DNA from: Anaerolineae bacterium
GTDB lineage: Bacteria; Chloroflexota; Anaerolineae; UBA4142; SHND01
Length of the DNA: 42,452 bases
Assembly (NCBI GenBank): GCA_021463195.1
Contig: JAJTXZ010000040.1
Coordinates: 1 to 42,452, forward strand
Reading direction: 5' to 3'
Below, in pieces: positions 1,582 to 35,125 of the stretch (positions are counted from its first letter, which is position 1; every line of letters begins with the position of its first letter). Made by a program: the position numbers and the translations under genes. Under the pieces are notes generated by a model. The model worked only from the letters and a program-made list of their open reading frames with translations. It made no database searches and had not been told where the DNA came from.

Positions 1582-1661
1582 TGATTAGTTATTAGTTATT
1601 AGTCATTCGTCAGGCTTGATGTATTTACTAATAACTAATCGTTAATGACTAGTAACTAGTT
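1582..1661. repeat. Heptamer-word palindrome, nusG-rplK gap
   Basis: The left arm is four consecutive 7-mers (TGATTAG, TTATTAG, TTATTAG, TCATTCG) at 1582-1609. After a short spacer, five 7-mers of the complementary family (ACTAATA, ACTAATC, GTTAATG, ACTAGTA, ACTAGTT) fill 1627-1661 and run directly into the rplK ATG at 1662. The element takes up the whole gap, so rplK has no recognisable Shine-Dalgarno sequence. Confidence 0.85.
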
Positions 1662-2087
1662 ATGGCGAAAAAAGTCAAAGCATTGGTCAAACTCGCAATT
1701 CCGGCTGGCAAAGCCACGCCCGCGCCGCCGGTCGGCACCGCGCTTGGGCCGCACGGCATCAACATTATGCAGTTTACCAAAGAATACAACGCGCGCACTG
1801 CCAAAGACGCTGGCACGATCGTGCCGGTTTTGATTACGATTTATCAAGACCGTTCGTTTACGTTTGAATTGAAATCGCCGCCCGCGGGCGAATTATTGAA
1901 AAAAGCCGCCGGCGTGGAAAAGGGTTCGGGTGTGCCGAATCGTAACAAAGTCGGCGTTGTCTCACGCAAGCAAGTGCGCGAAATCGCCGAAAAGAAAATG
2001 AAAGACCTCAACGCGGTGGACGTCGAAGGCGCAATGAAAATGATTGAAGGCACCGCGAAAAATATGGGGATTGAAGTTAAAGATTAG
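1662..2087 (+). CDS. rplK: 50S ribosomal protein L11
   Basis: A 141-residue L11, part of the GTPase-associated centre of the large subunit. The N-terminal sequence [20 protein letters not shown] and the following [17 protein letters not shown] carry the Pro-rich hinge region that binds thiostrepton and 23S rRNA. The C-terminal RNA-binding half ends MGIEVKD. The length is normal. The last codons (AAA GAT TAG) overlap the first heptamer word of the next palindrome (AGATTAG), so the stop codon belongs to the repeat. The start codon abuts the previous palindrome with no visible ribosome binding site. Confidence 0.97.
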
Positions 2088-2148
2088 AGACTGGAAACTA
2101 GAGCGAGTTGAGCGGATAATTCTCCAGTCTCTAGGACTCTAATCTCCG
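2081..2148. repeat. Heptamer-word palindrome, rplK-rplA gap
   Basis: Four words (AGATTAG, AGACTGG, AAACTAG, AGCGAGT) at 2081-2108 face four complementary-family words (TCTCCAG, TCTCTAG, GACTCTA, ATCTCCG) at 2121-2148, so both arms are 28 bp. The first word contains the TAG stop of rplK. No T-tract follows. Confidence 0.8.
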
Positions 2149-2195
2149 AATAGTGGAAGCGCGACAACGCGCGCCAATTACCACAAGGAGCAAGC

Positions 2196-2921
2196 ATGGG
2201 ACACGGCAAGAAATATCAAGAAGCGGTAAAATTGGTCGAGCTGGACAAGGAATATTCGCCCGCGGAAGCGGTGGCGCTCGCCAAGAAAAGCGCGTATGGC
2301 AAATTTAATCAAACGGTCGAAGCGCATTTCAAGACCGGGTTGGATGTCAAACAGGCGGACCAACAAGTGCGCGGTGTAGTGCTTTTGCCGAACGGCACGG
2401 GCAAGACGGTGCGTATTCTCGTTTTTGCGGAGGGCGAAGCGGCGCGCGTGGCGCAAGAAGCCGGCGCGGATATTGTGGGCGGCGATGATTTAATCAAGCG
2501 TATTCAAGAAGGTTGGATGGAGTTTGATCTCGCCATCGCCATGTCCGACATGATGGGCAAAGTCGGTAAAAGCGGTTTGGGCAAGACGCTGGGACCGCGC
2601 GGTTTGATGCCCAGCCCTAAAGCGGGAACGATTTTGCAGCAGCCCGCGCAGCTGCCGCAACTAATTAACGAGAGTCGTTTGGGGCGCGTCGAATTCAAAA
2701 CCGACAAGACCGGCGGCATTCACAGCATCATTGGCAAAACCAGTTTTACCGAACAACAACTGGTCGAAAATTTCGCGGCGTTGATGGATGCGCTCAACAA
2801 AGCGAAACCTGCCGGCGCCAAGGGCGTCTATTTAAAGAAAATTTCGTTGGCGTCCACAATGGGCCCCGGCGTGCGCGTGGATGTCAATGCCGCGCAAAAT
2901 CTGAAACCGCAGACGACATAA
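2196..2921 (+). CDS. rplA: 50S ribosomal protein L1
   Basis: A 241-residue L1, the protein of the mobile L1 stalk near the E site and, in many bacteria, a translational repressor of its own mRNA. Recognisable segments are GHGKKYQEAVKLVE at the N-terminus, the VLLPNGTGKTVRILVFAEG region of domain I, LGKTLGPRGLMPSPKAGT (L1 signature) and the C-terminal TMGPGVRVDVNA. The start is supported by a good AAGGAG Shine-Dalgarno at 2185-2190, six bases before ATG 2196. The length is as expected. Confidence 0.97.
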   Translation: MGHGKKYQEAVKLVELDKEYSPAEAVALAKKSAYGKFNQTVEAHFKTGLDVKQADQQVRGVVLLPNGTGKTVRILVFAEGEAARVAQEAGADIVGGDDLIKRIQEGWMEFDLAIAMSDMMGKVGKSGLGKTLGPRGLMPSPKAGTILQQPAQLPQLINESRLGRVEFKTDKTGGIHSIIGKTSFTEQQLVENFAALMDALNKAKPAGAKGVYLKKISLASTMGPGVRVDVNAAQNLKPQTT

Positions 2922-2926
2922 TGGAT

Positions 2927-2954
2927 TTGCCTTTCGGCGCGTTTGGCATACAAT
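2927..2954 (+). promoter_or_regulatory. Candidate sigma-70 promoter of rplJL
   Basis: TTGCCT at 2927-2932, a 16-nt spacer and TACAAT at 2949-2954 resemble a housekeeping promoter. It starts just after the rplA stop and would initiate transcription just before the L10 leader structure. The match is by eye only. Confidence 0.4.
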
Positions 2955-2969
2955 AGCGTCGTTTGCGCG

Positions 2970-3135
2970 TGAAACGAAAATTAAATACGCCACAGATAGC
3001 CGGTCGTTCGCGCATTGCGCGAACATAAACGCACCTGCCGAGGCAAAAAACAATTTCATTACGCGCGCGCGCGATTGAAGATTGCATCTCTTGCTTGGGC
3101 GGCTGTCTGTAGCCAAAAAGCAAGAGATTTTTTTA
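2970..3135 (+). promoter_or_regulatory. L10 (rplJ) leader: ribosomal protein autoregulatory RNA with terminator
   Basis: The gap upstream of rplJ holds the conserved CCTGCCGAGGCAAAA block (about 3033-3047) of the bacterial L10 leader, the mRNA site bound by the L10(L12)4 complex. It is followed by a perfect 11-bp hairpin (ATCTCTTGCTT at 3086-3096 with its complement at 3118-3128) and a T-run at 3128-3134. The design implies feedback by premature termination. The 5' boundary is approximate. Confidence 0.8.
3086..3134 (+). terminator. Intrinsic terminator/attenuator in the rplJ leader
   Basis: An 11-bp perfect stem, with an inner GGCT/AGCC extension, ends in TTTTTTT at 3128-3134. It lies about 50 nt before the rplJ start, so it works as an attenuator rather than as the end of rplA. 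Confidence 0.85.
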
Positions 3136-3186
3136 TTGACGTGGAAAACCGCTTTGGCTTCGCCAAAGGTTGAGGAGGTGAGCAAG

Positions 3187-3714
3187 TTGTCAGTTACACG
3201 TGAACGCAAAGCTGATTTGGTCGCGCAGTTGACTCGAGAATTGCAAGAGGCGCAAGCCGTTATTATCACCGGCTATCGCACTTTGAAAGTGTCCGATTTG
3301 CAAGGCATCCGCAATGAATTGCGCGGAATGAAGGCAGGATATCATGTCGCTAAAAATACGTTGCTTGAACTCGCGCTAAAAGACGCGGGGCTGCCAGTGC
3401 CGACTGATCTGTTGGATGGTCCGACGGCGGTGGCATTTCTGCACGATGACCTTTCTGGTCCGGCGAAAAAGCTGACCGCGTTTTTCAAAGAAAAAGAATT
3501 GCCAATCAAAGGCGCTATTGTCGGGCAAAATATTTATGATGCCCAAGGCGTTGAAAATTTGGCGAAACTGCCGACGCGCGCAGAGCTATACGGACAATTT
3601 TTGGGTTCGCTGCAAGGTCCTGCCGCGAGTTTGGTGGGCGTCTTGAACGGCGTGTTGGCGCAGTTGGTCTATACGCTGCAAGCCAAAGTCGAGCAGTCCG
3701 AAGCGCAAGCATAA
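3187..3714 (+). CDS. rplJ: 50S ribosomal protein L10
   Basis: L10 anchors the L7/L12 dimers to form the ribosomal stalk. The sequence SVTRERKADLVAQLTRELQE, the GYRTLKVSDLQGIRNELR segment and LYGQFLGSLQGPAASLVGVLN are typical. The frame is open further upstream into the attenuator, but a strong Shine-Dalgarno (AGGAGGTG, 3173-3180) lies six bases before TTG 3187. This makes TTG the best start and gives 175 residues, the usual size. GTG 3178 would overlap the Shine-Dalgarno. The C-terminal helix that binds L7/L12 ends QAKVEQSEAQA. Confidence 0.95.
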   Translation: MSVTRERKADLVAQLTRELQEAQAVIITGYRTLKVSDLQGIRNELRGMKAGYHVAKNTLLELALKDAGLPVPTDLLDGPTAVAFLHDDLSGPAKKLTAFFKEKELPIKGAIVGQNIYDAQGVENLAKLPTRAELYGQFLGSLQGPAASLVGVLNGVLAQLVYTLQAKVEQSEAQA

Positions 3715-3721
3715 GTTTCAG

Positions 3722-3792
3722 TTAGAATTTTGATTTTTGATTTTCGATTGCAGCGCGTTTGGCGAAATTGAAAATCAGAAATCACAAATCAA
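3722..3792. repeat. Heptamer-word palindrome, rplJ-rplL gap
   Basis: This is the cleanest example in the window. Four words (TTAGAAT, TTTGATT, TTTGATT, TTCGATT) fill 3722-3749. A 15-nt GC-rich spacer follows at 3750-3764. Four complementary words (AAATTGA, AAATCAG, AAATCAC, AAATCAA) fill 3765-3792. Both arms are exactly 28 bp. The element ends six bases before the rplL Shine-Dalgarno. Confidence 0.9.
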
Positions 3793-3809
3793 AAAACAAG
3801 GAAAAAAAT

Positions 3810-4214
3810 ATGGCTTCCGATAAAGTGCAAGCAATTATTGATTCGCTCGATAACTTGAGCGTACTCGAAGTGGCAGAGCTTTCCAAAGCGCTGCAAGAAC
3901 ATTGGGGTGTCAGCGCCGCCGCGCCCGTCGCAGTTGCCGCGATGCCCGGCGCAGGCGCCGCTGCGGCAGGCGCCGCCGCCGCGCCTGCCGCCGAAGAGCA
4001 GACCGAGTTCGATGTCATCTTGAAAGACGCGGGCTCGCAAAAAATTCCGGTCATCAAAGTCGTGCGCGAACTCGTCGCGGGTCTTGGTTTGAAAGAAGCC
4101 AAAGAACTCGTCGAAAGCGCGCCGCAAGCGGTGAAAAAGAGCGTCTCTAAAGAAGAAGCCGCCGAAGCCAAAAAGAAATTGGAAGAAGTCGGCGCCAGCG
4201 TCGAAGTCAAGTAA
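3810..4214 (+). CDS. rplL: 50S ribosomal protein L7/L12
   Basis: A 134-residue stalk protein that recruits translational GTPases. The N-terminal dimerisation domain ([20 protein letters not shown]) is followed by a long Ala/Gly/Pro hinge at about residues 36-68. The C-terminal factor-binding domain has [20 protein letters not shown] and [15 protein letters not shown]. The frame is open to an upstream ATG at 3759, but that start would be inside the palindrome. ATG 3810, with AAGGA at 3798-3802, gives the family-standard N-terminus. Confidence 0.97.
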
Positions 4215-4279
4215 GAGACCAGAGATTAGAGCTTGGAGAGAATCAGCGCGTCAATCTTTGCGCGTTGATTCCTCCAAGC
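4214..4279. repeat. Word tract plus GC-rich stem-loop after rplL
   Basis: Four words (AGAGACC, AGAGATT, AGAGCTT, GGAGAGA) at 4214-4241 run into a long stem. GCTTGGAG at 4231-4238 pairs with CTCCAAGC ending at 4279, and AATCAGCGCG pairs with CGCGTTGATT. No T-run follows. It probably marks the 3' end of the rplJL message. Confidence 0.7.
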
Positions 4280-4297
4280 GCCAGATGCGCAAGAAAG

Positions 4298-4325
4298 TTG
4301 ACGCGCGTGCGCAAATGAATACAAT
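4298..4325 (+). promoter_or_regulatory. Sigma-70-type promoter of the tRNA-Ala genes
   Basis: TTGACG at 4298-4303, a 16-nt spacer and TACAAT at 4320-4325 lie 11 nt before the 5' end of the first tRNA. This is a near-consensus promoter at the right distance for a stable RNA. Confidence 0.7.
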
Positions 4326-4336
4326 TAAATCGTTTT

Positions 4337-4409
4337 GGGGCTGTAGCTCATTTGGGAGAGCGCTGCAATCGCACTGCAGAGGTAGTGGGTTCAAATCCCA
4401 TCAGCTCCA
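4337..4409 (+). tRNA. tRNA-Ala (anticodon CGC)
   Basis: A complete 73-nt cloverleaf. The acceptor stem GGGGCTG/CAGCTCC contains the G3:U70 pair that is the alanine identity element. The D-arm, a CTGCA/TGCAG anticodon stem with loop ATCGCAC (anticodon CGC at 4370-4372), and the T-arm with loop TTCAAAT are all present. The discriminator is A and no CCA is encoded. It reads GCG, a codon used very heavily in this window. Confidence 0.95.
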
Positions 4410-4413
4410 CTAT

Positions 4414-4480
4414 TCTTTATTTTAGATTTTTGATTGCGATACAGCGCGCAAGTCTAAAAGCTCGTCAAAAAGCTAAAATA
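4414..4480. repeat. AT-rich word palindrome between the two tRNA genes
   Basis: Degenerate 7-mers (TCTTTAT, TTTAGAT, TTTTGAT) at 4414-4434 face TCTAAAA, AAAAAGC and TAAAATA words at 4453-4480 across a GC-rich spacer. It has the same design as the rplJ-rplL element but is less regular. Confidence 0.5.
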
Positions 4481-4486
4481 TTTTAT

Positions 4487-4562
4487 GGGGCTATAGCTCA
4501 ATTGGGAGAGCGCTACACTGGCAGTGTAGAGGTCGTCGGTTCGAGCCCGATTAGCTCCACCA
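4487..4562 (+). tRNA. tRNA-Ala (anticodon GGC)
   Basis: The acceptor stem GGGGCTA/TAGCTCC again has G3:U70. The anticodon stem CTACA/TGTAG encloses loop CTGGCAG, with anticodon GGC at 4520-4522. The T-loop is TTCGAGC. The discriminator A at 4559 is followed by C-C-A at 4560-4562, so CCA is encoded or matches by chance. It reads GCC/GCU. It is probably cotranscribed with the first tRNA-Ala. Confidence 0.95.
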
Positions 4563-4564
4563 CA

Positions 4565-4645
4565 GATTTATGATTGTGGATTTGTGATTTCTGATTTTAG
4601 AAACACAAACCCGCAGCGTAAATCGTAAATCAAAAATACAAAACG
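4565..4645. repeat. AT-rich heptamer-word palindrome before the leucine T-box
   Basis: Five words (GATTTAT, GATTGTG, GATTTGT, GATTTCT, GATTTTA) at 4565-4599 are followed by a spacer and then GTAAATC, GTAAATC, AAAAATA and CAAAACG at 4618-4645. Confidence 0.75.
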
Positions 4646-4768
4646 CTTTGACCGGGAGCAGTAGGTCATCTCCGCAGCGAGTTGGGAAAGACAAGGTGCA
4701 AGCCCAACACGACGCGCCAACGGAGAGCGCATAGACCGAACTCGCCCGCGAGCTGCAATCTTGAAATC

Positions 4769-4796
4769 TGGTTGGAGACTGGAGACTAGAGATTGA
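4769..4796. repeat. Heptamer tract inside the T-box leader
   Basis: Four 7-mers (TGGTTGG, AGACTGG, AGACTAG, AGATTGA) make a 28-bp tract between T-box stem I and the antiterminator. They are the same word family as in the rplK-rplA and argG-argH gaps. Confidence 0.8.
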
Positions 4797-4830
4797 CGTT
4801 AACCTCGCACGTTACGCGAATCGAGTGAAG

Positions 4831-4870
4831 TGATTCGGGGATTCGGTGATTCGGTGATTGGATTATTCCG
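4831..4870. repeat. Octamer tract inside the T-box leader
   Basis: Five 8-mers (TGATTCGG, GGATTCGG, TGATTCGG, TGATTGGA, TTATTCCG) are in tandem just before the T-box core. They have the same A/G-rich word character as the 7-mers but a period of 8. Confidence 0.75.
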
Positions 4871-4924
4871 TCGCTTGTCACCAGCCACTTTCGCTTAAAC
4901 TGGGTGGTACCGCGGAGATTCATG

Positions 4925-4959
4925 AACCTTCGTCCCAATTTGGGATGGAGGTTTTTTTT
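4925..4959 (+). terminator. T-box terminator of leuS
   Basis: AACC..TCCCAA pairs with TTGGGA..GGTT, followed by an eight-T run at 4952-4959. The 5' half overlaps the region that would form the antiterminator with the T-box core. Confidence 0.85.
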
Positions 4960-5040
4960 ATCTCTCGCCTCTGTACAATATTGGACGCAAATGACACATT
5001 CGTTGTGGTTCAATAAAACGGCGACGGAATTTTTTATTGG

Positions 5041-5070
5041 ACGCGGATGAACGCGGATAAACGCGGAGAA
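5041..5070 (+). repeat. Decamer tandem repeat (ACGCGGATGA) x3
   Basis: ACGCGGATGA, ACGCGGATAA and ACGCGGAGAA are three in-phase 10-mers in the gap between the T-box terminator and leuS. Related CGGATAA/CGGATGA words occur near 26010-26160. Confidence 0.75.
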
Positions 5071-5146
5071 AAAACAATAATCGGATTGTTTTGCATTGCG
5101 GAACAATGAAATTCAAAAATTGGAAATTTTGAACGGAGCATGAATC

Positions 5147-7813
5147 ATGGAAACGCAAGTAACTATCCCACCATCGCACGAACGCACTAGCGCGCCAAAA
5201 TACGTCCCCCAAGACTTTGAAGCGGGTTGGATGCAAAAATGGGAAGCGGACGAATTGTACAAAACCGCGCCGGCGGATGAACGTCCCAAAGCGTACATCT
5301 TGGATTTCTTTCCGTATCCATCGGGTGATGGTTTGAGCGTGGGACATTGCCGCAATTATGTGCCGACAGATGTGCTGTCGCGTTACTTTCGCATGAAGGG
5401 CTATAACGTTTTGCATCCGATGGGTTGGGACGCGTTCGGCTTGCCGGCGGAGAACGCGGCAATCAAAATGAAAACGAATCCCGCGAAATTGATCGCGCAA
5501 TATTCCGCGAATTACAAACGTCAATTTCGTTTGATTGGGATTTCGTTCGATTGGTCGCGCGAAATCAATTCGTCCACGCCCGAATACTATCGCTGGACGC
5601 AGTGGATTTTTTTGAAACTGTATCACGCGTGGTATGACTCGCGCGAAAATCGCGCGCGCTCCATTTCGACATTGGAAACCGAATTGAGCGCCAACGGCAC
5701 GCAAAACATTCCGAACGCGCGCGTAGAAATTTCGGCGGACGCATGGAACGCGTTCAACAAAAAACAGCGCAGCGAATTTTTATCCAATTTTCGTTTGGCG
5801 TACCGCAAGCCATCGGTGGTGAATTGGGACCCGGTTGACAAGACGGTATTGGCGAATGAAGAGGTGGTTGACGGGCGCGGCTGGCGCAGCGGCGCGTTGG
5901 TCGAGAAAAAAGTTTTGCAGCAGTGGTTCTTTCGCATCACCGAGTACAGCGAACGCTTGATCAATGATTTGGACGCGATTGATTGGCCCGAACATATCAA
6001 GTTGATGCAAAGAAATTGGATTGGCAAAAGCGTCGGCGCGGAAGTAGATTTTCAAACCGATGCGGGCGCGCTGCGAATTTTCACGACGCGTCCCGATACG
6101 TTGTGGGGCGCGACGTTCATGGTGTTGGCGCCCGAACATCCCTACGTCGAAAAATTGGCGACGGCTGACCACAAAGCGCGCGTGAATCAATACGTTAAAG
6201 AGGCAAAGGCAAAAACCGAAGTTGAACGCGCGGAGGAAGGTAAAGACAAAACGGGCGTGTTCACGGGCGCATACGCGACGAATCCCGTGAACGGCGAGAA
6301 AATTCCGATTTGGGTCGCGGACTATGTGATGATGAGTTATGGCACGGGCGCGATTATGGCGGTGCCCGCGCATGACCAACGCGATTTTGAATTTGCGCGC
6401 AAATTTCATTTGCCGATACGCGTGGTGATTCAACCCGAAGGGGAATCGTTGAATGCGGATGAAATGGAACGCGCGTTTCCGCACGATGGCGTGATGGTCA
6501 ATTCGGGAATTTTTGACGGAACGAGCGCGGATGTCGCGGTGGAAAACGTAACGCGTTGGTTGGAAGAAAAAAGCATCGGCGCGAAACGCGTCAATTACAA
6601 ATTTCGCGATTGGGGCATCAGCCGCCAGCGTTATTGGGGCACGCCGATTCCGATTGTTCACACGGACGATGGCGAAGTCGCAATGGCTGAAAATAATTTG
6701 CCGATCGAATTGCCGAATGTGGATTCGTACGAACCCACCGCGACAGGCGAATCGCCGTTGGCAAACATTCCCGAATTTGTGAATGTGACATTGCCCGACG
6801 GAACGCGCGGGCGACGCGAGACGGACACGATGGGAACGTTCGCGTGTTCGTCGTGGTACTTTATGCGTTTCACTGACCCGCGCAATGACCAAGAGCCATT
6901 TCAAACAAAAGAGGTGAACTATTGGCTGCCCGTTGACACCTACGTCGGCGGCGCGGAACACGCGGTCATGCACTTGCTGTACGCGCGTTTTTGGACCAAA
7001 GTATTGTACGACTTGGGCATTGTCTCGTTCATCGAACCATTTCAACGCTTGCGGAATCAAGGCATGATTTTGTCGCCGCAGATGAAAGACGGCAAGTACG
7101 AAAAAATGTCAAAGTCCAAAGGCAATGTCATCACGCCCGACGAAATGGTGGAACAATTTGGCGCGGACGCGCTGCGCGCGTACGAAATGTTCATCAGCGA
7201 TTTCACCGTCGCGACGCCGTGGCAAACGGACGGCTTGGCAGGCACGCATCGTTGGCTGACGCGCGTGTGGAATTTGTTCTTGGAACCCGCGCGTGAAAAT
7301 TTGCCGCAAGCGAATGAGGAACAAATCAAATTGCTGCGCCGCGCGCTGCATCAAACCTTGCGCAAAGTCGAAGGTGACATCAATGCTTTCGCCTTCAACA
7401 CCGTCATTTCGTCTTTGATGACGTTGACGAATGTGTTGGTAAAAGCCAAAGATTCGGCAACCTATCCCGACGCGGTGTGGGGCGAAGCGATGAAGACGCT
7501 GCTGTTGATGTTGGCGCCGATTGCGCCGTTCATGGCAGAAGAAATCTGGACGCGCTCGGGGAACGCGTACAGCGTGCATCAACAAAAATATCCCGTGTAC
7601 GACGCGGACGCGGCAAAAGAGGAAACGTTCACGTTAATCGTTCAAGTCAACGGCAAAGTGCGCGGCAAAATCGAATTGCCTGTTGGCGTGAGCGAAGAGG
7701 GCGCGAAAGAAAAAGCGTTCGATGACGCGAATGTGAAAAAGTGGGTGGAAGGGAAAACGATTGCGAGCGTAGTGTACGTGCCGGGGCGATTGATGAATGT
7801 GGTAGTAAAGTGA
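5147..7813 (+). CDS. leuS: Leucyl-tRNA synthetase
   Basis: A class I synthetase of 888 residues that charges tRNA-Leu with leucine. YPSGDGLSVGHCRNY contains the HIGH-type signature (SVGH, residues 64-67), and KMSKSKGN at 653-660 is the KMSKS loop. The editing (CP1) domain includes TTRPDTLWGATFMVLAPEHP and MSYGTGAIMAVPAHD. ATG 5147 is preceded by GGAGC. An extra segment of about 45 residues (about 166-212) sits in the ZN-1 region before LAYRKPSVVNWDPVDKTVLA, and the zinc cysteines usual there are absent. Expression is controlled by the upstream leucine T-box. Confidence 0.97.
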   Translation: METQVTIPPSHERTSAPKYVPQDFEAGWMQKWEADELYKTAPADERPKAYILDFFPYPSGDGLSVGHCRNYVPTDVLSRYFRMKGYNVLHPMGWDAFGLPAENAAIKMKTNPAKLIAQYSANYKRQFRLIGISFDWSREINSSTPEYYRWTQWIFLKLYHAWYDSRENRARSISTLETELSANGTQNIPNARVEISADAWNAFNKKQRSEFLSNFRLAYRKPSVVNWDPVDKTVLANEEVVDGRGWRSGALVEKKVLQQWFFRITEYSERLINDLDAIDWPEHIKLMQRNWIGKSVGAEVDFQTDAGALRIFTTRPDTLWGATFMVLAPEHPYVEKLATADHKARVNQYVKEAKAKTEVERAEEGKDKTGVFTGAYATNPVNGEKIPIWVADYVMMSYGTGAIMAVPAHDQRDFEFARKFHLPIRVVIQPEGESLNADEMERAFPHDGVMVNSGIFDGTSADVAVENVTRWLEEKSIGAKRVNYKFRDWGISRQRYWGTPIPIVHTDDGEVAMAENNLPIELPNVDSYEPTATGESPLANIPEFVNVTLPDGTRGRRETDTMGTFACSSWYFMRFTDPRNDQEPFQTKEVNYWLPVDTYVGGAEHAVMHLLYARFWTKVLYDLGIVSFIEPFQRLRNQGMILSPQMKDGKYEKMSKSKGNVITPDEMVEQFGADALRAYEMFISDFTVATPWQTDGLAGTHRWLTRVWNLFLEPARENLPQANEEQIKLLRRALHQTLRKVEGDINAFAFNTVISSLMTLTNVLVKAKDSATYPDAVWGEAMKTLLLMLAPIAPFMAEEIWTRSGNAYSVHQQKYPVYDADAAKEETFTLIVQVNGKVRGKIELPVGVSEEGAKEKAFDDANVKKWVEGKTIASVVYVPGRLMNVVVK

Positions 7814-7817
7814 AAAT

Positions 7818-10843: not shown

Positions 10844-13570
10844 ATGAAAAATTACATCTATACGTTTGCTCAAGTTTCGCGTGACGACATTCCGCGCGTC
10901 GGCGGCAAAGGCGCGAATCTCGGCGAAATGACGCGCGCAGGCTTGCCCGTGCCGCCCGGTTTCTGTGTCAGCGCGGACGCGTATCGCGAATTTACGCGCG
11001 GCGCCGACGAAACCATCGCGCAAATTTTGCAAGAAACGCGCATGGACAACGCGAACGATGTAGAAATAAAAACCGCGCGTTTGCGCGAATTGCTCATCGC
11101 GCAGCCGATGCCGCAGAATATCGCGCGGCAGATTCTCGACGCGCACGCGGAATTGCAAATGCAAGTGTATGGGAATAAAGCGGCGTCGTCCGTCGTCCGT
11201 CGTCCGTCGTCCGCGTTCCCCGTCGCTGTTCGCTCTTCCGCCACTGCCGAAGATTTGCCCGACGCGTCGTTTGCGGGGCAACAAGATACCTATTTGAACA
11301 TTCGCGATGATGAACAATTGCTCGAACACGTGAAACGCTGTTGGGCGTCGTTGTGGACGGCGCGCGCGGTGACGTATCGCCACAAACAAGGTTACGCGCA
11401 TGAATCGGTCGCGCTTGCGGTGGTCGTCCAAGCGATGATTGAAAGCGAGGTCGCGGGCATCTTGTTCACCGCGAATCCGGTCAACAACCGTCGCGACGAA
11501 ATGGTTCTCAACGCGAGTTGGGGCTTGGGCGAAGCGATTGTTTCGGGACTCGTCACGCCGGATACGTGGATTGTGAAACAAAGCGGCGAAATTCTTGAAC
11601 GCGAAATCGCGAACAAGGAAATTGCGATTGAATACGCGGCGGAAGGCGGCACCCGCGAAATTGCCGTGCCGCGCGAAAAATCTGAAATTGCCTGCTTGAA
11701 CGACGACAAAATTTTCGCGCTCGTTCAAATCGGCGCGCGCGTCCAAGAACATTACGCGCGTCCAATGGATATTGAATGGGCATACGCGCGCGAAAAATTT
11801 TACATGTTACAGGCGCGTCCGATAACGACCTTGCAGACCGCAGCCGACAGCTTACAGACAATAGAAAAATTCCAGTCTCCAGTCTCCACTCTCCAATCTC
11901 TCCCCGGCGAATACAACCGCTCGATGTTTATCGAAATTTTTCCCGACCCGTTATCGCCCGCGTTTCTTTCGGTCATCGCGCCGTTGTTTGAATCCATGCT
12001 TGCGTTCACCTTTGAAACGTTGGGTTTCAAGCCGCCCCAAGATATTCCCGCGATTGGAATTTTTTACAATCAACCCTATTTCCATCGTGAATATATTGAA
12101 AAAGCGCTCGCGCCTCTTTCGCCGCCGACGCGCGCGGCGATGACGCTGCAAATTACCAACCCGTTTGGCAAACATGAGCGTAAACTGCCGACCGAAGCGT
12201 CGCGCGCGTTTTTCAAAATGATGGCGCGGTTGCTCGGCTTTATGCGCGCGTTTCCAAAACAACTGCCGGGGTTGCTCGCCGAATATCGCGCGGCGATTGA
12301 AACTTTAAAGCGCGCGCCGATTGAAAAAATGTCGGACCGCGAAATTCTCGCGCGCATCCGCGACCTGTTATTTGTTCATGCGAGCAAGTTGCTCAATTAT
12401 GATTTCTTGATGATCGCGCTCATCGGCATCACGTATCAGATGCTTGGTTCGGTGTTGGAACGCTATTACGGCGACGACACGGAACAGATTCGCGCCAAAC
12501 TCGTCAGCGGTGTCACGGGCAATGTGACGATGGAGACGAACAAGCAGATTTGGAATTTGGCGCAAAAAGCAAAACAAAGCGTCAACGTATCCGAAATTTT
12601 GCGCGGGGCGAATGACGCGAATGCGCGCGCTCAACTCGAGGCAACTGACGACGGACGCGAATTTCTTGCCGCGCTCGACGCCTTTCTGGTTGAATACGGT
12701 CATCGTGAAATTCGCATGGACATTTTATATCCGACGTGGGGCGAAGACCCCGCGCCCGTTCTGCGCTTTTTACGCAGCTATTTCGACGCGGATGATAAAG
12801 CGAGCCCGTTCGCGCAAGAAAAACGACTCGCGCAAGAACGCGTGCAGTTGGCGCGCGCGGTCAGCGCTCGAACGCAACGCGATTTGATTGGACGCATCGC
12901 CATCGCGCCGTTGTTTCATTGGGTCTTGGAAAACACGCAGCGGCATACGCGCGAACGCGATACAATGCACTTTGAATTGACGCGTTTGTTTCCGCCGGTT
13001 CGGCGCGGTTTGTTGGAGCTCGCCGCGCGCTGGCAAAATATTTTGGACGCGCCCGACGATATTTTCTTTTTTTCGCTCGCTGAATTGGAACAGCTGGCAG
13101 AGCTGCCGCAACCGTACCGCGAATTGATACAGCGGCGTCGCGCGGAATTTCAAGCCAACGCGGCGCGTCCACCCCCCCCCATTGTGCGTGATGGGGTCGG
13201 CATGGCTGAGCGCGCCGAGCGCGTCGAAAGCGTCGCAGGCCAATGGCGCGGCGTCGCAGGTAGCCCGGGCGTGGCGACGGGCATCGTGCGCGTGGTGCGC
13301 GGACCGCACGAATTTGAAAAATTGCAGCGCGGCGAAATTCTGGTCGCGCCGTTGACGAATCCGGTGTGGACGCCGTTATTCGCGCTGGCGGGCGGCATCG
13401 TGACGCAGGTTGGCGGCATTCTTTCGCATGGCGCGATTGTGGCGCGCGAGTACGGCATTCCCGCCGTGATGGCAATTCACGACGCGACGAATTTATTTCA
13501 AGATGGGCAGCGCGTGACGGTGGATGGAAATAAAGGCATCGTGTACGCCGAAACGCAAACAAAGCGCTGA
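10844..13570 (+). CDS. PEP-synthase/rifampin-phosphotransferase-like dikinase
   Basis: 908 residues from ATG 10844 (MKNYIYTFAQVSRDDIPRVG). The N-terminal ATP-grasp domain has GGKGANLGEM, PVAVRSSATAEDLPDASFAG and QARPITTL. A central region of about 450 residues (SMFIEIFPDPLSPAFLS...) lacks the PEP/pyruvate TIM barrel. The phosphohistidine domain is at the very C-terminus, with GGILSHGAIVAREYGIPAV and the catalytic His at about 862. This order (ATP domain, substrate domain, His domain) is that of rifampin phosphotransferases, not of true PEP synthase, which ends in a TIM barrel. The substrate is unknown. Three tandem 7-mer tracts and a C9 run lie in the coding sequence. Confidence 0.85.
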   Translation: MKNYIYTFAQVSRDDIPRVGGKGANLGEMTRAGLPVPPGFCVSADAYREFTRGADETIAQILQETRMDNANDVEIKTARLRELLIAQPMPQNIARQILDAHAELQMQVYGNKAASSVVRRPSSAFPVAVRSSATAEDLPDASFAGQQDTYLNIRDDEQLLEHVKRCWASLWTARAVTYRHKQGYAHESVALAVVVQAMIESEVAGILFTANPVNNRRDEMVLNASWGLGEAIVSGLVTPDTWIVKQSGEILEREIANKEIAIEYAAEGGTREIAVPREKSEIACLNDDKIFALVQIGARVQEHYARPMDIEWAYAREKFYMLQARPITTLQTAADSLQTIEKFQSPVSTLQSLPGEYNRSMFIEIFPDPLSPAFLSVIAPLFESMLAFTFETLGFKPPQDIPAIGIFYNQPYFHREYIEKALAPLSPPTRAAMTLQITNPFGKHERKLPTEASRAFFKMMARLLGFMRAFPKQLPGLLAEYRAAIETLKRAPIEKMSDREILARIRDLLFVHASKLLNYDFLMIALIGITYQMLGSVLERYYGDDTEQIRAKLVSGVTGNVTMETNKQIWNLAQKAKQSVNVSEILRGANDANARAQLEATDDGREFLAALDAFLVEYGHREIRMDILYPTWGEDPAPVLRFLRSYFDADDKASPFAQEKRLAQERVQLARAVSARTQRDLIGRIAIAPLFHWVLENTQRHTRERDTMHFELTRLFPPVRRGLLELAARWQNILDAPDDIFFFSLAELEQLAELPQPYRELIQRRRAEFQANAARPPPPIVRDGVGMAERAERVESVAGQWRGVAGSPGVATGIVRVVRGPHEFEKLQRGEILVAPLTNPVWTPLFALAGGIVTQVGGILSHGAIVAREYGIPAVMAIHDATNLFQDGQRVTVDGNKGIVYAETQTKR
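11185..11212 (+). repeat. Perfect heptamer repeat (GTCGTCC) x4 inside the dikinase gene
   Basis: Four exact tandem copies of GTCGTCC, 28 bp. It encodes SSVVRRPSS just before the conserved PVAVRSSATAEDLP segment. Confidence 0.97.
11834..11900 (+). repeat. Two 4x7-bp word tracts in the dikinase interdomain linker
   Basis: CAGACCG, CAGCCGA, CAGCTTA and CAGACAA fill 11834-11861. CAGTCTC, CAGTCTC, CACTCTC and CAATCTC fill 11873-11900. Each tract is 28 bp. Together they encode a linker rich in LQT/LQS after PITTL. The second tract uses the same words as the intergenic palindromes. Confidence 0.9.
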
Positions 13571-25940: not shown

Positions 25941-25997
25941 TCACCCCGTATTCCGCAACCCCGCCGCAATCCCATTGATCGTCACCACCATCGCGTC
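25941..25997 (-). pseudogene. Duplicated 57-bp remnant of the ppc 3' end
   Basis: Bases 25941-25997 are identical to 26194-26250, the last 18 codons plus stop of ppc. The copy begins exactly at the stop codon (TCA on this strand) and lies 253 bp away from the functional end. Confidence 0.92.
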
Positions 25998-26189
25998 GCG
26001 GCGAGCGGACAACGGATAATGAAAGCGGATGAACGGATGCGCGTATCCTATCCGTTCATCCGCTTTTCCATCCGTTGGCAGTCGCTCTCATCATCGCGTC
26101 GCGGTCAGCGGTCAACGGATAATAAAAACGGATAAACGAATGCGCGCGTTCTATCCGTTTATCCGCTCTTTTATCCGTTGGCAGTTCTC
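25988..26189. repeat. Two tandem ~100-bp palindromic units next to ppc
   Basis: Unit 1 (about 25988-26087) and unit 2 (about 26088-26189) share CATCGCGTCGCGG at the start, CAACGGATAAT, GCGC and ATCCGTTGGCAG at the end. Within each, CGGATAA/CGGATGA words face ATCCGTT/ATCCGCT words, giving a palindrome. The units are similar but not identical. Confidence 0.8.
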
Positions 26190-26193
26190 CCCC

Positions 26194-30182: not shown

Positions 30183-30505
30183 ACAAAAAAATGCAAGCCC
30201 CATAATATCAGCATCCCCACCACAATCGTCGCCAGCACATTTTTTGTGCGCCACGCGACGAATCCCGCGACGATGCCCGCGAGCAGCCGCGCATTGAACG
30301 GCGATAAATTGACGCCGCCATTCTGAATCAGAATTTCGGGCAGCGTAAACGCGGACAATACCGCGACCGGCACAAATGTCAACGCGCGCGTGAACCATGC
30401 GGGCATTGTCATGCGCCCATGAATGGCGATGAACGAAAAGCGAATTAAAAAAGTGGCGATGCCGCATGCAATAATCGTGAGCCACAACTCGAGTGAGGAT
30501 TCCAT
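30176..30505 (-). CDS. azlD: AzlD-like branched-chain amino acid exporter subunit
   Basis: 109 residues, four membrane helices (WLTIIACGIATFLIRFSFIA, AVLSAFTLPEIL and others), the pattern of AzlD. It forms a two-subunit branched-chain amino acid exporter with AzlC encoded upstream on the same strand. The 94-bp gap between them holds a word-built palindrome. It overlaps the LCP gene by 7 bp at its 3' end. Confidence 0.88.
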   Translation of the reverse strand: MESSLELWLTIIACGIATFLIRFSFIAIHGRMTMPAWFTRALTFVPVAVLSAFTLPEILIQNGGVNLSPFNARLLAGIVAGFVAWRTKNVLATIVVGMLILWGLHFFVH

Positions 30506-30580
30506 GGATTTGGGATACAGATGTCATAGATTTAGAGCGCTGTTTATCTGTGTAATCTATGCAAGCTGTGTCCAAAAAAT
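30506..30580. repeat. Heptamer-word palindrome, azlC-azlD gap
   Basis: GGATTTG, GGATACA, GATGTCA and TAGATTT fill 30506-30533 (28 bp) right next to the azlD start. TAATCTA, TGCAAGC, TGTGTCC and A-rich bases follow at 30553-30580 as the other arm. Confidence 0.75.
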
Positions 30581-30599
30581 TAAATTGTGATGTATTGTG

Positions 30600-31289: not shown

Positions 31290-31299
31290 GGGCTTGAAA

Positions 31300-31360
31300 A
31301 CGCGAATCTACGCGAATCGAAACGAATTATTTTTTCGTAAAGATTCGCGTAGATTCGCGT
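31300..31360. repeat. 19-bp perfect palindrome between azlC and argH
   Basis: ACGCGAATCTACGCGAATC at 31300-31318 is the exact reverse complement of 31342-31360. The arms are decamer words (ACGCGAATCT, ACGCGAATCG). Read on the minus strand the hairpin is followed by TTTTC, so it may terminate argH transcripts. Confidence 0.85.
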
Positions 31361-31381
31361 TGAAATTGCTTTCAATAAATT

Positions 31382-32749
31382 TTACTCGACGCTACGCAAC
31401 GAACCTTTTGCTAACTCTAATTGCTCGCGCACTGCGCCGGTTCCGCCGAACACAGCGCGCGCTTGGACTGACGCGTCAAAATCAAAAACGGCATAAACGT
31501 CAGCGTCGAATTTTTCCGATGCCGCGCGAAAATCATCCAGCGACAACGCGGACAATTTCACCCCGCGCGTTTCCGCCAACTTTACCAAACCGCCGACGCT
31601 GTGATGCGCTTGACGAAACGGCACGCCGCGTCGCACGAGATATTCCGCGAGGTCTGTCGCCAACATGCTTTCGTCCAACGCCGCGCGCATTTTGTCCGCG
31701 TTCACGCGCAGCGTTTGAATCACGCCCGTCACAATCGGCAGCGTCATTGCGAGCGTGTCCGCCGCGTCGAATAATGGTTCTTTGTCTTCTTGCAAATCTT
31801 TATTGTACGTCGAGGGCAGACCTTTTAGCGTAATCAAGAGAGACTGGAGATTGGCGATTACGCGCCCCGTTTTGCCGCGCGCGAGTTCCAAGGCGTCGGG
31901 ATTTTTTTTCTGCGGCATCAGCGACGAGCCGGTCGTGTACGCGTCATCCAGTTCGATAAAACCAAATTCGGGCGCGGAATAATAAATCAAATCTTCGGCG
32001 AGCCGCGACAAATGAATTTGCGACAGCGCCGCGGCGAATAAAAATTCCGCGATAAAGTCGCGGTCGCTCACCGCGTCGAGCGAATTTTCGCTAATACGGT
32101 CAAAACCGAGTTCGCGCGCGAGAAACGCGCGGTCAATCGAAAATGGATTGCCCGCGAGCGCGCCCGCGCCGAGCGGTAACACACTCGCGCGTTTCTTTGC
32201 ATCGGCAAAACGTTCGCGGTCGCGTTGCAGCATCCAAAAAAAAGATAACAAGTAATGCGCGAACGAAATCGGCTGCGCGCGGCGCACGTGCGTATAGCCG
32301 GGGAAAAGAGTGTCGAGCTGTTGTGCGGCGGAATGGCAGAGAGAGGATTGGAGATTGGAGATTAGAGACTGCATCTGCGTACAAGCATCAATCACATAGA
32401 GCCGCGTATCCGTTGCCACTTGGTCATTGCGCGAACGGCCGGTGTGAAGTTTGTGCGCGGGTTCGCCGACGAGTTCAAACAAGCGGCGTTCGACGGCGGT
32501 GTGAATGTCTTCGTCGTTTGGCGTCGCGACAAACGCGCCGCGCGCAAATTCATCGCGCACGAGGCATAAGCCGCGTGCGATTTCATTCGCTTCGCGCTCG
32601 GAAATAATTTGCGCGCGCGCCAACGCGTTCGCATACGCGAGACTGCCGCGAATGTCCGCGTCGTACATGCGCCAATCGAAATGAAACGAATTGTTGAACC
32701 GCGCGAATAATTCGTCCGGTGGTTTATCGAAACGTCCGCCCCAAAGCAT
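31382..32749 (-). CDS. argH: Argininosuccinate lyase
   Basis: 455 residues; it splits argininosuccinate into arginine and fumarate. The family signature GSSLMPQKKNPDALELARGK is intact, as are HTGRSRNDQVATDTRLYV and FPGYTHVRRAQP. The fold is ordinary, and two helical segments (MQSLISNLQSSL and NLQSLLITLKGL) are encoded by the same 7-mer words as the intergenic palindromes, at 32347-32374 and about 31836-31858. By memory of E. coli ArgH the first of these has no length change. It is the last arg gene of the lysW-lysX-argG-argH run. Confidence 0.97.
   Translation of the reverse strand: MLWGGRFDKPPDELFARFNNSFHFDWRMYDADIRGSLAYANALARAQIISEREANEIARGLCLVRDEFARGAFVATPNDEDIHTAVERRLFELVGEPAHKLHTGRSRNDQVATDTRLYVIDACTQMQSLISNLQSSLCHSAAQQLDTLFPGYTHVRRAQPISFAHYLLSFFWMLQRDRERFADAKKRASVLPLGAGALAGNPFSIDRAFLARELGFDRISENSLDAVSDRDFIAEFLFAAALSQIHLSRLAEDLIYYSAPEFGFIELDDAYTTGSSLMPQKKNPDALELARGKTGRVIANLQSLLITLKGLPSTYNKDLQEDKEPLFDAADTLAMTLPIVTGVIQTLRVNADKMRAALDESMLATDLAEYLVRRGVPFRQAHHSVGGLVKLAETRGVKLSALSLDDFRAASEKFDADVYAVFDFDASVQARAVFGGTGAVREQLELAKGSLRSVE
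32347..32374. repeat. Heptamer tract inside argH
   Basis: ATTGGAG, ATTGGAG, ATTAGAG and ACTGCAT, four words of the AGATTGG/AGACTAG family, lie in-frame in the argH coding sequence. Confidence 0.85.
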
Positions 32750-32758
32750 CGCAAGCAG

Positions 32759-32867
32759 TAACTAGAGACTAGAGATTGGAGATTTCTCGCTCCGCTCGAA
32801 ATGACATTCGGCTAGTCTCCAATCTCCAAGCTCTAATCTTGAATCTCTAATCTCCGAATTCTAATTT
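32759..32867. repeat. Long heptamer-word palindrome, argG-argH gap
   Basis: The left arm is four words (TAACTAG, AGACTAG, AGATTGG, AGATTTC) at 32759-32786. The spacer contains a copy of the GTCATTTCGAGCGGAG word on the minus strand. The right arm is eight words from CTAGTCT to CTAATTT at 32812-32867, the last three extending into argG. Confidence 0.85.
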
Positions 32868-34079
32868 TCCCAAAATCCCTTGATTCACCATCGCGCGCAC
32901 GGTCAGCGGCAAGCCAAAGAGATTGATAAAACCGTCAGCGTGGCGCTGATTAAAAATTTCGTCGCGCATGAACGTGACGACGGATTCTTGATAGAGCGAG
33001 TACGGCGATTTGCGTCCGGCGGTGATAATGTTGCCTTTGTACAATTTCAATTTCACTGTCCCCGTTGTGCGTTCCTGTGTTTTGCTCACGAACGCGTCGA
33101 GGGCTTCGCGCAGCGGGGTGAACCACAAACCGTAATACACGAGCTCGCCGTATTTTTGCGCGAGCAAATCTTTATAGTGCATCGTTTCGCGGTCGAGCGT
33201 TAATGCTTCCAATTCGCGATGCGCCCAATACAACAGCGCGCCGCCGGGTGTTTCGTACACGCCGCGCGATTTCATGCCGACGAGACGATTCTCCACCAAG
33301 TCCACGCGCCCGATGCCGTTCGCCGCGCCAACCGCGTTAAGTTTTTCGATAATTTGCACGGGTTCCAACGCTTCGCCATCTATCGCCACCGGCGTGCCTT
33401 GCCGAAATTCAATTTCGACATAGATCGGTTTGTCCGGCGCGTTTTCGGGCGACACCGAAAGCTGGAACATGTCTTCAACGGGTTCGTTCCACGGGTCTTC
33501 GAGTTCGCCGCCTTCGTGCGACAGGTGCCACAAGTTGCCATCGCGCGAATAAATTTTCTTGCTTGTTTGCGAAACGGAAACATTGTGCGCGGCGGCGTAC
33601 GCGAGCGCGTCGTCGCGTCCTTTGATGCTCCACTCGCGCCATGGCGCGATGATTTTCATTTGCGGCGCGAATGCTTTGTACGTCAATTCAAAACGCACTT
33701 GATCGTTGCCCTTGCCGGTGGCGCCGTGCGCCACCGCGTCCGCGTTTTCGGCGAGCGCGATTTCGATTTGATGTTTCGCGATGAGGGGCCGCGCGAACGA
33801 TGTGCCGAGTAGATATTTCTCTTCGTATTGCGCGCCCGCGCGCAGCGTGGGGAAAATATATTGCGTCACAAATTCGTGTTTCAAATCTTGAACGATGCAT
33901 TTGGACGCGCCGCTCGCCACCGCTTTTTTCGCTACCGCGTCCATATCGTCGCCCTGTCCGATGTCGGCAGTGTAGCAAACCACTTCGCAGCCGTAATTTT
34001 CCACGAGCCACGGGACGATAACGCTGGTGTCCAATCCGCCGGAATAGGCGAGGACGACTTTATGCACATTAGAGTTCAT
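32847..34079 (-). CDS. argG: Argininosuccinate synthase
   Basis: 410 residues; it joins citrulline and aspartate with ATP. The ATP-binding motif [19 protein letters not shown] lies at residues 7-25, and the signature [18 protein letters not shown] follows. The final residues (KLEFGD and the TAG stop) are encoded by words of the adjacent palindrome, as is the stop codon. The start at 34079 follows the heptamer palindrome of the lysX gap. Function in arginine biosynthesis is clear, downstream of the LysW-dependent genes. Confidence 0.97.
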
Positions 34080-34081
34080 GG

Positions 34082-34158
34082 AAAGTAAAAAGTTTCAAGC
34101 TAAAAGCTAAAAGTTTTGCACTCGCTTGCACTTTTAGCTTTTAGCTTTTTACTTGGCA
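34082..34158. repeat. Heptamer-word palindrome, argG-lysX gap
   Basis: AAAGTAA, AAAGTTT, CAAGCTA, AAAGCTA and AAAGTTT fill 34082-34116. CTTTTAG, CTTTTAG, CTTTTTA and CTTGGCA fill 34131-34158. The end overlaps the last codons and TAA stop of lysX. Confidence 0.88.
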
Positions 34159-35042
34159 GCTTGGATTAGATAATCAATAATTTTGTTTGGAATATCCGCG
34201 CCCGTCGCGGTTTCACTGCCGCGAAATTCGGGGGTGGGATTGATTTCGTTGATGAGATAACCGCGCGTTTCATCTTCAATCACATCAATCGCGAGAAAGC
34301 CGCCGCCCACTGCGTTCGCCGCGTCGCGCGCGATTTTTTCCAAGGCGCGGTCAACGGGACACGGCGTCGAGCTGGCGCCGCGCGCGGTGTTCGTGACCCA
34401 ATGGTCGGACGAACGATAAATCGCGGAAACGATTTCAGCGCCGAGCATGATGATGCGGATGTCGCGCCCCGGTTTTTTGATATATTCTTGGAGATAAAAA
34501 ATTTCGTGCAGAAAATGGCCCAGCGTCGCTTTGTGTTCGAGCAGCGCCTCGGCGGCTTCGCGGTCATTTACTTTGGACACTAATCTGCCCCACGAACCGA
34601 TGATCGGTTTTAAAACGACGGGATAGCCCATCGCTTCAATCGCCGCGAGCGCGGCTTCGGGCGTGAACGCGATTTCGGTGCGCGGCGAGGGAACATTGTG
34701 CTTTGACAACGCGGCGGTGGTTAATAATTTATCGCCGCATGTCGCCACCACGTCCGCGCGATTCACCGTTTTGATGCCCCACGAATTGAGAATTTGCAGC
34801 GCGTACAAGCCGCGCGTAAATTCCATCGCGCGGTCCAAGACCACATCGTACTGTTGAAACTTTTCGGGACGCGTAAATTTGACGCCGTGATATTTTTCAG
34901 GCGCGCCGTCGTATTGCGGCGTGAGATTGAACACGATTTCGCGATCGTCAATCAAATCGTGCGCAAGGTCGCGGCGTTGCAGCGCTTCGATGATTTGTTT
35001 TTCTTCAAAGCGGACGCGCGAATAGATGAGACCGATTTTCAT
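34149..35042 (-). CDS. lysX: LysX/ArgX-type ATP-grasp ligase (amino acid to LysW carrier)
   Basis: 297 residues of the ATP-grasp/RimK superfamily. GYPVVLKPIIGSWGRLVSKV binds ATP, and FLAIDVIEDETRGYLINEINPTPEF carries the metal-binding Asp/Glu/Asn. These proteins ligate glutamate (ArgX) or alpha-aminoadipate (LysX) to the C-terminal glutamate of LysW. A LysW gene lies next to it and argG-argH follow, so an ArgX role (glutamate, ornithine/arginine synthesis) is my inference. The motif that separates LysX from ArgX was not tested. No SD is visible because a word palindrome abuts the start. Confidence 0.88.
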   Translation of the reverse strand: MKIGLIYSRVRFEEKQIIEALQRRDLAHDLIDDREIVFNLTPQYDGAPEKYHGVKFTRPEKFQQYDVVLDRAMEFTRGLYALQILNSWGIKTVNRADVVATCGDKLLTTAALSKHNVPSPRTEIAFTPEAALAAIEAMGYPVVLKPIIGSWGRLVSKVNDREAAEALLEHKATLGHFLHEIFYLQEYIKKPGRDIRIIMLGAEIVSAIYRSSDHWVTNTARGASSTPCPVDRALEKIARDAANAVGGGFLAIDVIEDETRGYLINEINPTPEFRGSETATGADIPNKIIDYLIQAAK

Positions 35043-35043
35043 A

Positions 35044-35125
35044 GAAAAGTGGAATGTGGAAATCGGAAAGCGGAATGTGAATCCAACGATTCAATCCACA
35101 CTCCGCTTTCTACTTTCGGAATTCG
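35044..35125. repeat. Heptamer-word palindrome, lysX-lysW gap
   Basis: GAAAAGT, GGAATGT, GGAAATC, GGAAAGC and GGAATGT fill 35044-35078, one base upstream (minus-strand sense) of the lysX ATG. Complementary words with TTCGGAA- and CCGCTTT-like sequence follow to about 35125. Confidence 0.8.

Follow-up and report, generated by a model that had tools for sequence, protein, structure and literature searches.

What are the palindromes that lie between the genes of this bacterium, and why are their arms made of short words that change from one gap to the next? The question is raised by a 42,452-nucleotide stretch, called the window below, of an Anaerolineae bacterium (contig JAJTXZ010000040.1, assembly GCA_021463195.1; Chloroflexota), in which a first, sequence-only reading had listed ten 28-bp tracts as palindromes of tandem seven-base words. 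Period-7 palindromes were found by an inverted-repeat search at positions 1579-1651, 3722-3793, 32766-32839, 34097-34147 and 35066-35110. The observation is partly confirmed: it is real, wider than first described and in part misdescribed. The tandem-word palindromes are interpreted as intercistronic stem-loops of polycistronic mRNAs, with both arms built from one repeated word; this reading is preferred, and is held as somewhat short of probable. It is adopted because of the position of the elements, the co-variation of their arms at the level of the word and the existence of published analogues, and not because of any tuning of base pairs.

Strict period-7 tracts are far in excess of chance. 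In the intergenic DNA of the window and of 20 stretches picked by contig number only, 21 such tracts were counted, compared with a mean of 0.1 in 10 dinucleotide shuffles; the excess over shuffled intergenic sequence on which the sequence-only reading depended is present. The other 17 lags tested in this sample gave 0-11 tracts, the 11 being at lag 14, the double of 7, and the coding DNA of the same sample, 4.4 times longer, held 14 lag-7 tracts. Base-level autocorrelation over intergenic DNA had no clear peak at lag 7 (0.269, like lags 4, 5, 6 and 13), because the elements make up a small share of that DNA. The pattern GATTNNNGATTNNNGATT has 369 matches in the window's own genome, compared with 6 for its reversed control. 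It occurs in 19 of the 19 relatives of the same order that were searched, with 23 to 1047 matches each (for the control, 14 of these genomes had 0-8 matches, and G001, G003, G015, G016 and G018 had 13-71). Few matches were obtained in most of the 40 genomes searched from the remainder of the class. The palindromes are found throughout the order and are patchy in other families of the class.

For counts per gap, a detector was applied to co-directional gaps of 50-400 nt. It required an inverted-repeat score of at least 22 and a best lag of 7-9, and elements of lag 5 or 10 are excluded from its counts. Genes were called with a hexamer scorer of our own in place of a standard annotator, and the genomes are mostly drafts in many contigs. 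The sample consisted of the rplA and S10-operon neighbourhoods of relatives and of random stretches of G001, G008, G009 and G018. Near ribosomal-protein genes a 7-9-nt palindrome was detected in 48/122 gaps of the same genus and 96/263 gaps of the other family (144/385 together), compared with 19/112 in the random stretches (p 3e-5). In the window's own genome the S10 stretch held 4/19 and the remainder of the sample 4/101 (p 0.02); the S10 stretch is quoted alone because the own-genome excess of 9/40 includes the window, which was itself picked by the finding (5 of its 21 gaps qualify). Palindromes were absent from 28 gaps of three outgroup genomes of the class, from letter-shuffled gaps, and from 63 co-directional gaps in the ribosomal-protein stretches of 31 loci not labelled Chloroflexota, for which gene calls were self-trained on each stretch.

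Two further sets of stretches were picked for their arrays, L066-L085 because of the GATT pattern and L168-L185 because of arrays of TAGTC or GATT, and no density claims are therefore made from either. The 18 stretches of the latter contained 21 palindromes, distributed as 19/87 co-directional, 1/13 convergent and 1/14 divergent gaps, with best lags of 8 (13 palindromes), 7 (6), 10 (1) and 6 (1); none was detected in those of G037, G040 and G075. Arrays of TAGTCNNN are present in other families of the class too. Stretches L066-L085 are included in the sets of 181-187 detected elements used below for position, words, folding, stops, polarity and unit counts, and in the sets used for unit permutation, period agreement, letter partners and spacer identity; the counts of gap density, complementary halves and orthologous gaps exclude them.

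The grammar had been described as specifically seven-base, and in this it was drawn too narrowly, as 7-, 8- and 9-nt words are all present in the order. The tandem-period spectrum of 415 gaps has 94 at 7, 38 at 8, 16 at 9 and 2 each at 6 and 10, and the remaining lags from 3 to 15 have 0-4, except for 74 at 14, the double of 7. Among 614 gaps, both halves shared a period of 7 in 87, of 8 in 29, of 9 in 13 and of 10 in 4. Palindromes of 9-10-nt words, for example ACAGGATTN and CACTGAAACA, were observed at L127 12502, L132 17245 and L143 17279, which suggests that words can be as long as ten. Nearly all elements of the window's own genome have period 7. The statement that arms very often hold exactly four words stands as a mode, with about four per arm in 69/181 elements; three were counted in 55/181, and the range is 2-14.

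The two arms of an element belong together. Without any selection on palindromes, complementary own halves (score at least 20) were found in 45% of 399 co-directional gaps of 60-160 nt, compared with 3% when left halves were set against the right halves of different gaps in their genome and 5% in direct orientation. Of 137 gaps with a 7-9-nt tract in both halves, 129 have one period on the two sides, compared with 69 expected. In gaps with a one-period tract in both halves (122, of which 88 have period 7), the inverted likeness exceeds the direct one in 118. Where elements are first picked by the detector, a comparison of their arms carries its bias, and reliance is therefore placed on such tests of unselected gaps. 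A signal of unit order seen among detected elements (mean percentile 0.71) was discarded, as it was not borne out by the unselected test (0.47).

The word at one and the same gap changes between species. In the nusG-rplK gap, the 12 genomes with a detected element use the 7-nt words TTATTAG, CAGTGAC, TTATTCG and AATTAGG-like, the 8-nt words TAGTCNNN and CAATCNGG and the 9-nt word GCCAAANNT. The two arms are alike each time, a likeness that the detector itself requires. Within each of two genome families, orthologous elements resemble one another more than other elements do (p 4e-6 and 0.006); across the two families they do not (p 0.63). At word positions that differ between similar elements of different genomes, the partner arm carries the letter of its own element in 333 cases, that of the other in 61 and neither in 104; the 122 gaps used were chosen only for one-period tracts in both halves, and the pairs overlap, which means that the p of 2e-46 is not to be taken literally. 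The claim that the grammar is common and the sequence is not is supported, with arms that co-vary between species at the level of the word. The pattern of pairing seems to be kept while the word sequence is free to change. Neighbouring gaps do not use orthogonal words: adjacent elements share a word in 10/133 cases, compared with 9.8 expected by chance, and avoidance of cross-pairing between neighbouring gaps was rejected on that ground.

Elements are placed directly after genes. The median distance between the end of the upstream stop codon and the start of the element is 2 nt, and 160/181 elements start within 15 nt of that codon; their end lies at a median of 19 nt ahead of the next start. 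By gap type, palindromes were found in 176/638 co-directional, 3/41 convergent and 3/39 divergent gaps (p 3e-5). The stem is rarely followed by a T run (a run of five T near the end of the right arm in 8/181), and the elements are therefore not intrinsic terminators. The predicted fold has a z below -2 in 99% of the 181 elements, as is expected for any palindrome.

From this position, from the co-variation of words between arms and by analogy with known stem-loops, it is inferred that the elements are transcribed and fold. In such a stem any unit of one arm could pair with any unit of the other, and because every unit can pair with every opposite unit, the stem would bear the addition or removal of units and unrestricted change in the spacers. 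The word might then drift, or give way to another, provided that the change reaches both arms. In the 7-nt families slippage would add and homogenise units, and in the clearest 8- and 9-nt families the core would be held and the spacer left free. A stem at the 3' end of a gene might separate, process or stabilise segments of the operon mRNA, as the stem-loops of selective RNA processing and stabilization (SRPS) do; a function in mRNA processing or stability is suggested by that analogy.

Several results weigh against the stem-loop interpretation. The preference for co-directional gaps is not significant in random stretches alone (23/213 vs 2/45, p 0.27). Base-level tuning for RNA on the mRNA strand left no sign in the test of G.U against A.C mismatches: the sense strand has 265 A.C and 149 G.U mismatches, the reverse of what selection on an RNA stem predicts. 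The G.U:A.C ratio predicted from the composition of the two arms is 0.49 and the observed one 0.56; composition explains most of the ratio, a slight lean to G.U at most is therefore left, and the test is adverse or, after composition, neutral. The sense fold is not more stable than the antisense fold (78 vs 103 elements). A 7-9-nt tract is present in one half only in 133/614 gaps (88 left, 45 right), compared with 137 with tracts in both; part of this may be due to offset and threshold and part may be real, since some long arrays have no partner arm. Permutation of the units of the right arm did not lower the palindrome score (30.5 for permuted units vs 30.95; mean percentile 0.47, p 0.25). 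Finally, three features are left unaccounted for by a plain stem: the core common to all units, the near-random spacers around a fixed core, and the single polarity of words.

The permutation result and the resemblance among units also bear on how the arrays arise. In 77 gaps, simulated fold-back copies with 20-25% mutation gave mean percentiles of 0.87 and 0.81, far from the 0.47 observed. The likeness of units is 0.776 inside an arm and 0.725 from one arm to the other (p 2e-6). The match between the arms is one of words and not of single units. The sequence-only reading had supposed that a tract and its inverted partner come out of one process. As the arms are not copies in register, and likeness within arms exceeds that between them, such a process fails in that form; neighbouring units of TAGTCNNN and GCCAAANNT are not copies of each other either. 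A neutral account is possible, though not probable, namely that the elements are by-products of replication: short tandem duplications by slippage, together with strand switching templated by hairpins, would create the arms and make them uniform, and the build-up past stop codons would reflect nothing more than the freedom of that DNA to vary. The 7-nt families are consistent with it: the identity of neighbouring spacers is 0.316 in GATTNNN arrays, compared with 0.068 by chance, and 0.379 in CAGTNNN arrays, compared with 0.075, a slippage-like signature of homogenised units. A looser TAGTNNNN set, a mix of families with 59 arrays, is also above chance (0.098 vs 0.033). The same account is favoured by the greater likeness within arms, by the common one-half tracts and long one-arm arrays, and by the G.U test. 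It does not fit the lack of register copies, the recurrence of identical cores with fixed polarity across genera and families, the enrichment around ribosomal-protein operons, or the scarcity of palindromes in convergent gaps (3/41), which have two stop codons each. One long G-rich array, with a GATTGG core at mixed 7- and 8-nt spacing and without an evident partner arm, was observed at L067:12780-13050.

Slippage meets its limit in the best-defined 8- and 9-nt families, which combine a fixed core with a nearly random spacer. Neighbouring spacers of TAGTCNNN (22 arrays; 0.049 vs 0.040) and of GCCAAANNT (12 arrays; 0.05 vs 0.09) have no excess identity, and slippage therefore does not account for their arrays; identity is likewise not above chance in TAGTTNNN (10 arrays) and CCAATGNN (6 arrays). 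Common words tend to hold one polarity. The 5' arm is rich in purines in 146/181 elements, and period-7 word pairs alike at 6 or more of 7 positions make up 5.1% in the same polarity and 1.2% in the opposite one, compared with 2.2% after shuffling. Such arrays might be kept by one or more word-specific proteins that read fixed cores at 7-9-nt spacing in inverted arrays, either on DNA or on the RNA of the stem; selection on the sites would then keep the core and free the spacer. In favour of this are the fixed cores with near-random spacers, the identical cores and polarity across genomes, and the presence of TAGTCNNN in other families of the class; the accessible part of PMC4679880 discusses the binding of CspB to heptamer repeats with one protein per heptamer. 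Many readers would be needed for the many unrelated words within one genome and for the differing words and lengths at one gap; the proposal is held as unlikely. Another unlikely, though not negligible, idea is that the intercistronic spacers of Anaerolineae form a new class, with a fixed core at an exact pitch of 7, 8 or 9 nt, free spacers, inverted arrays and one polarity, maintained by an agent specific to the core, be it a protein that reads it or an enzyme that writes it, rather than by slippage or selection on base pairs; the heptad arrays of cyanobacteria, xanthomonads and Beggiatoaceae would then be other outcrops of it.

Repetitive extragenic palindromic (REP) sequences and bacterial interspersed mosaic elements (BIME) are short extragenic palindromes present in many copies with a conserved, copied sequence. 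The elements studied here are also short, extragenic, palindromic and dispersed, and they differ in that the grammar alone is common. A copied mobile element, either of the kind spread by a REP-associated tyrosine transposase (RAYT) or a miniature inverted repeat, is improbable. The Y1_Tnp family (PF01797), which is wider than RAYT, was matched in 33/40 relatives, and recurring words could come from common descent. Y1_Tnp was found in 16 of the 19 same-order relatives and, among these draft genomes, had no match in G007, G011 and G017; of these, G011 is 94% complete and carries many elements, and an association with RAYT seems not to be needed in every genome. Beyond the grammar no sequence is common to all elements, which speaks against the conserved copied palindrome of the REP/BIME type, and the likeness of orthologous gaps within and not across the two genome families is what vertical descent gives. 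A true copied hairpin family of the same genome, CGGATTTCCAGACCCYAAGGGTTT, looks quite different. Its members are near-identical, with arms of 24 nt; the family is apparently copied, and was seen at L106:2801, L109:2033, L123:16950, L124:4363 and L125:3962.

The words might act as cassettes that close every reading frame past the end of a gene by means of stop codons recurring at a period not divisible by three. By eye, the left and right CAGT arms differ in such a way that TRA stays on the sense strand in both, and stops are more numerous on the sense strand than on the antisense strand (792 vs 674, p 0.02). Shuffled elements have almost as many (775 +/- 19) and close all three frames in 42% of cases, compared with 48% in the real ones, a result that leaves this idea weak and close to refuted. 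Moreover, GCCAAANNT-like words have no stop in the core, and a period of 9 is divisible by three; the cassette explanation is hardly credible.

In the window, the elements adjoin nusG, rplK, rplA, rplJ, rplL, leuS, argH, argG and a gene for a LysX/RimK-like ligase. The ten tracts first listed, starting at 1582, 2081, 2121, 3722, 3765, 4214, 4769, 30506, 32759 and 34131, have 18, 11, 9, 18, 16, 14, 14, 9, 15 and 16 lag-7 matches out of 21, respectively. As period-7 tracts those at 1582, 3722, 3765, 32759 and 34131 are good, 4214 and 4769 are moderate, and 2081 and 2121 are ragged; 30506 is not a heptad tract and, by eye, is more like a palindrome of 9-10-nt words. The list also mixed units, as 2081 and 2121 form one palindrome and so do 3722 and 3765.

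The nusG-rplK element has its left (5') arm of TGATTAG/TTATTAG words at 1579-1603, starting on the nusG stop codon, and its right arm at 1627-1651 (loop 23, lag 7). In the rplK-rplA element, the left arm (2081-2103; words AGATTAG, AGACTGG and AAACTAG, with a ragged period) overlaps the rplK stop codon at 2085-2087, and the right arm is at 2122-2146. Its core inverted repeat TAGAGACTGGA pairs 2085-2095 with 2123-2133 and is below the length needed for the period test of the detector; the search gave this shorter palindrome as 2085-2133, with its first base on that stop codon. The rplJ-rplL element (word TTTGATT; inverted-repeat score 31, loop 16, lag 7) begins 7 nt past the rplJ stop codon, with arms at 3722-3749 and 3766-3793. 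Past the rplL stop codon, 4214-4241 is a lone heptad array; the search gave it no heptad partner arm, and the hairpin at 4231 is of a different kind.

Upstream of leuS, which encodes leucyl-tRNA synthetase (LeuRS) at 5147-7813, a candidate T-box leader was matched on the forward strand at 4639-4940 (RF00230, 82.7 bits, below the gathering threshold of 93, E 2e-18); at the gathering threshold, two tRNAs and nothing else were found by Rfam in the window. The leader contains two word arrays. One is the previously listed heptad array of AGACTGG/AGACTAG at 4769-4796, of which about the first third lies in an insertion of the cmscan alignment. The other, the 8-nt array GTGATTCG at 4830-4859 (3.8 copies by Tandem Repeats Finder, TRF), lies mostly in an insertion.

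Between the minus-strand genes argG and argH, arms of AGACTAG/AGATTGG words at 32766-32784 and 32821-32839 form an inverted repeat with loop 36 and lag 7, and TRF reports period 7 at 32816-32855. A perfect 18-bp inverted repeat (loop 15, lag 7) joins AAGCTAAAAGCTAAAAGT at 34097-34114 to 34130-34147, which stops 1 nt short of the adjoining gene. The word GGAATGT, already reported, recurs in an additional element, with arm GAAAGCGGAATGTGAAT at 35066-35082 and its partner at 35094-35110 (loop 11, lag 7). Heptad arrays with the vocabulary of GAGACTGG and GAGATTGG were also seen within called coding sequences at 11867-11902 and 32343-32373, and a 103-bp direct repeat in 1.9 copies lies in a large convergent gap at 25989-26185.

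If the stems act on operon mRNA, a conserved function would be kept with a wholly replaceable sequence, and such stems would go unseen by methods that depend on motif conservation or on covariation in alignments. A direct mechanistic question is raised by the arrays with fixed cores and free spacers, because simple slippage fails to account for them. Heptanucleotide repeats, P6b stems, quadruplex-like heptads and TAACTGA repeats can be brought under one testable pattern, that of single-word paired arrays at a pitch of 7-9 nt, placed past stop codons inside operons.

Cyanobacterial heptanucleotide repeats (short tandemly repeated repetitive sequences, STRR) are described as tandem repeats. The elements resemble them in having tandem 7-nt words that are intergenic and far above chance. 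They were not assigned to this type, since words of 8 and 9 are common in the order. A Nostoc plasmid stretch (L166) contained three such palindromes in 26 gaps and a stretch of Trichormus plasmid A none in 17; a plasmid search for similar arrays, with the low-complexity filter acting, found none. For GGGGA(C/T)T in Nostoc PCC 7120, the accessible text of PMC4692102 gives few inverted pairs only.

The sequence-only reading held that heptad repeats are not described as paired palindromic arms; as far as the accessible text of two papers goes, such arms had already been published for the Nostoc trnL intron P6b stem (PMC4476775) and for Xanthomonas GGGANTN (PMC4692102). Either TDNGATT or NNTGAGT underlies the P6b stem in every case, and repeated shifts from the second to the first are described in the part of PMC4476775 that was available. 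In P6b of the Nostoc/Calothrix trnL(UAA) intron, as here, both arms come from one 7-nt motif and one class of word gives way to another as a whole (Class I, TDNGATT, takes the place of Class II, NNTGAGT, according to that source); Class I is nearly the GATTNNN family, and the word arrays in the T-box leader likewise lie inside a structured RNA. By the same account P6b is one intron stem with two words, whereas here many intercistronic gaps carry many words of lengths 7-9. A location in a trnL group I intron does not apply, as the elements counted sit in gaps between called protein genes.

Xanthomonas GGGANTN heptamers mostly have four units, with 70 and 75 inverted pairs in two species. They are intergenic, mostly between co-directional genes and nearer the upstream gene, as are the elements here, and repeats of prominent length are found at different genes in the two species (all from the accessible part of PMC4692102). 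That repeat is one G-rich word, studied as a quadruplex former, and the same part of the paper describes no 8- or 9-nt families or word switching. The consensus words of 187 detected elements mostly lack a GGG tract, and they were not placed in this type. The TAACTGA repeats of Beggiatoaceae, cyanobacteria and Bacteroidetes are heptads, intergenic, and have a word that can be derived from the CAGTTAT words of this study by reverse complementation and rotation; they differ, in the accessible text of PMC4679880, in being direct and mostly just upstream of start codons, with one inverted case in 170 sets.

Closest in position are the SRPS stem-loops, which follow genes within operons, including those for ribosomal proteins (PMC8219983, as far as accessible). 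In both cases a stem directly follows a gene in a co-directional gap; SRPS are a functional class with RNA evidence, for which the accessible part of that source mentions no tandem-word grammar, and the palindromes here are described from sequence. Among the papers listed by full-text literature searches, which largely did not reach subscription journals, none described palindromes of many different 7-9-nt words between the genes of operons. In comparison with these systems, what seems to be new is the large vocabulary of interchangeable 7-9-nt words in intercistronic spacers.

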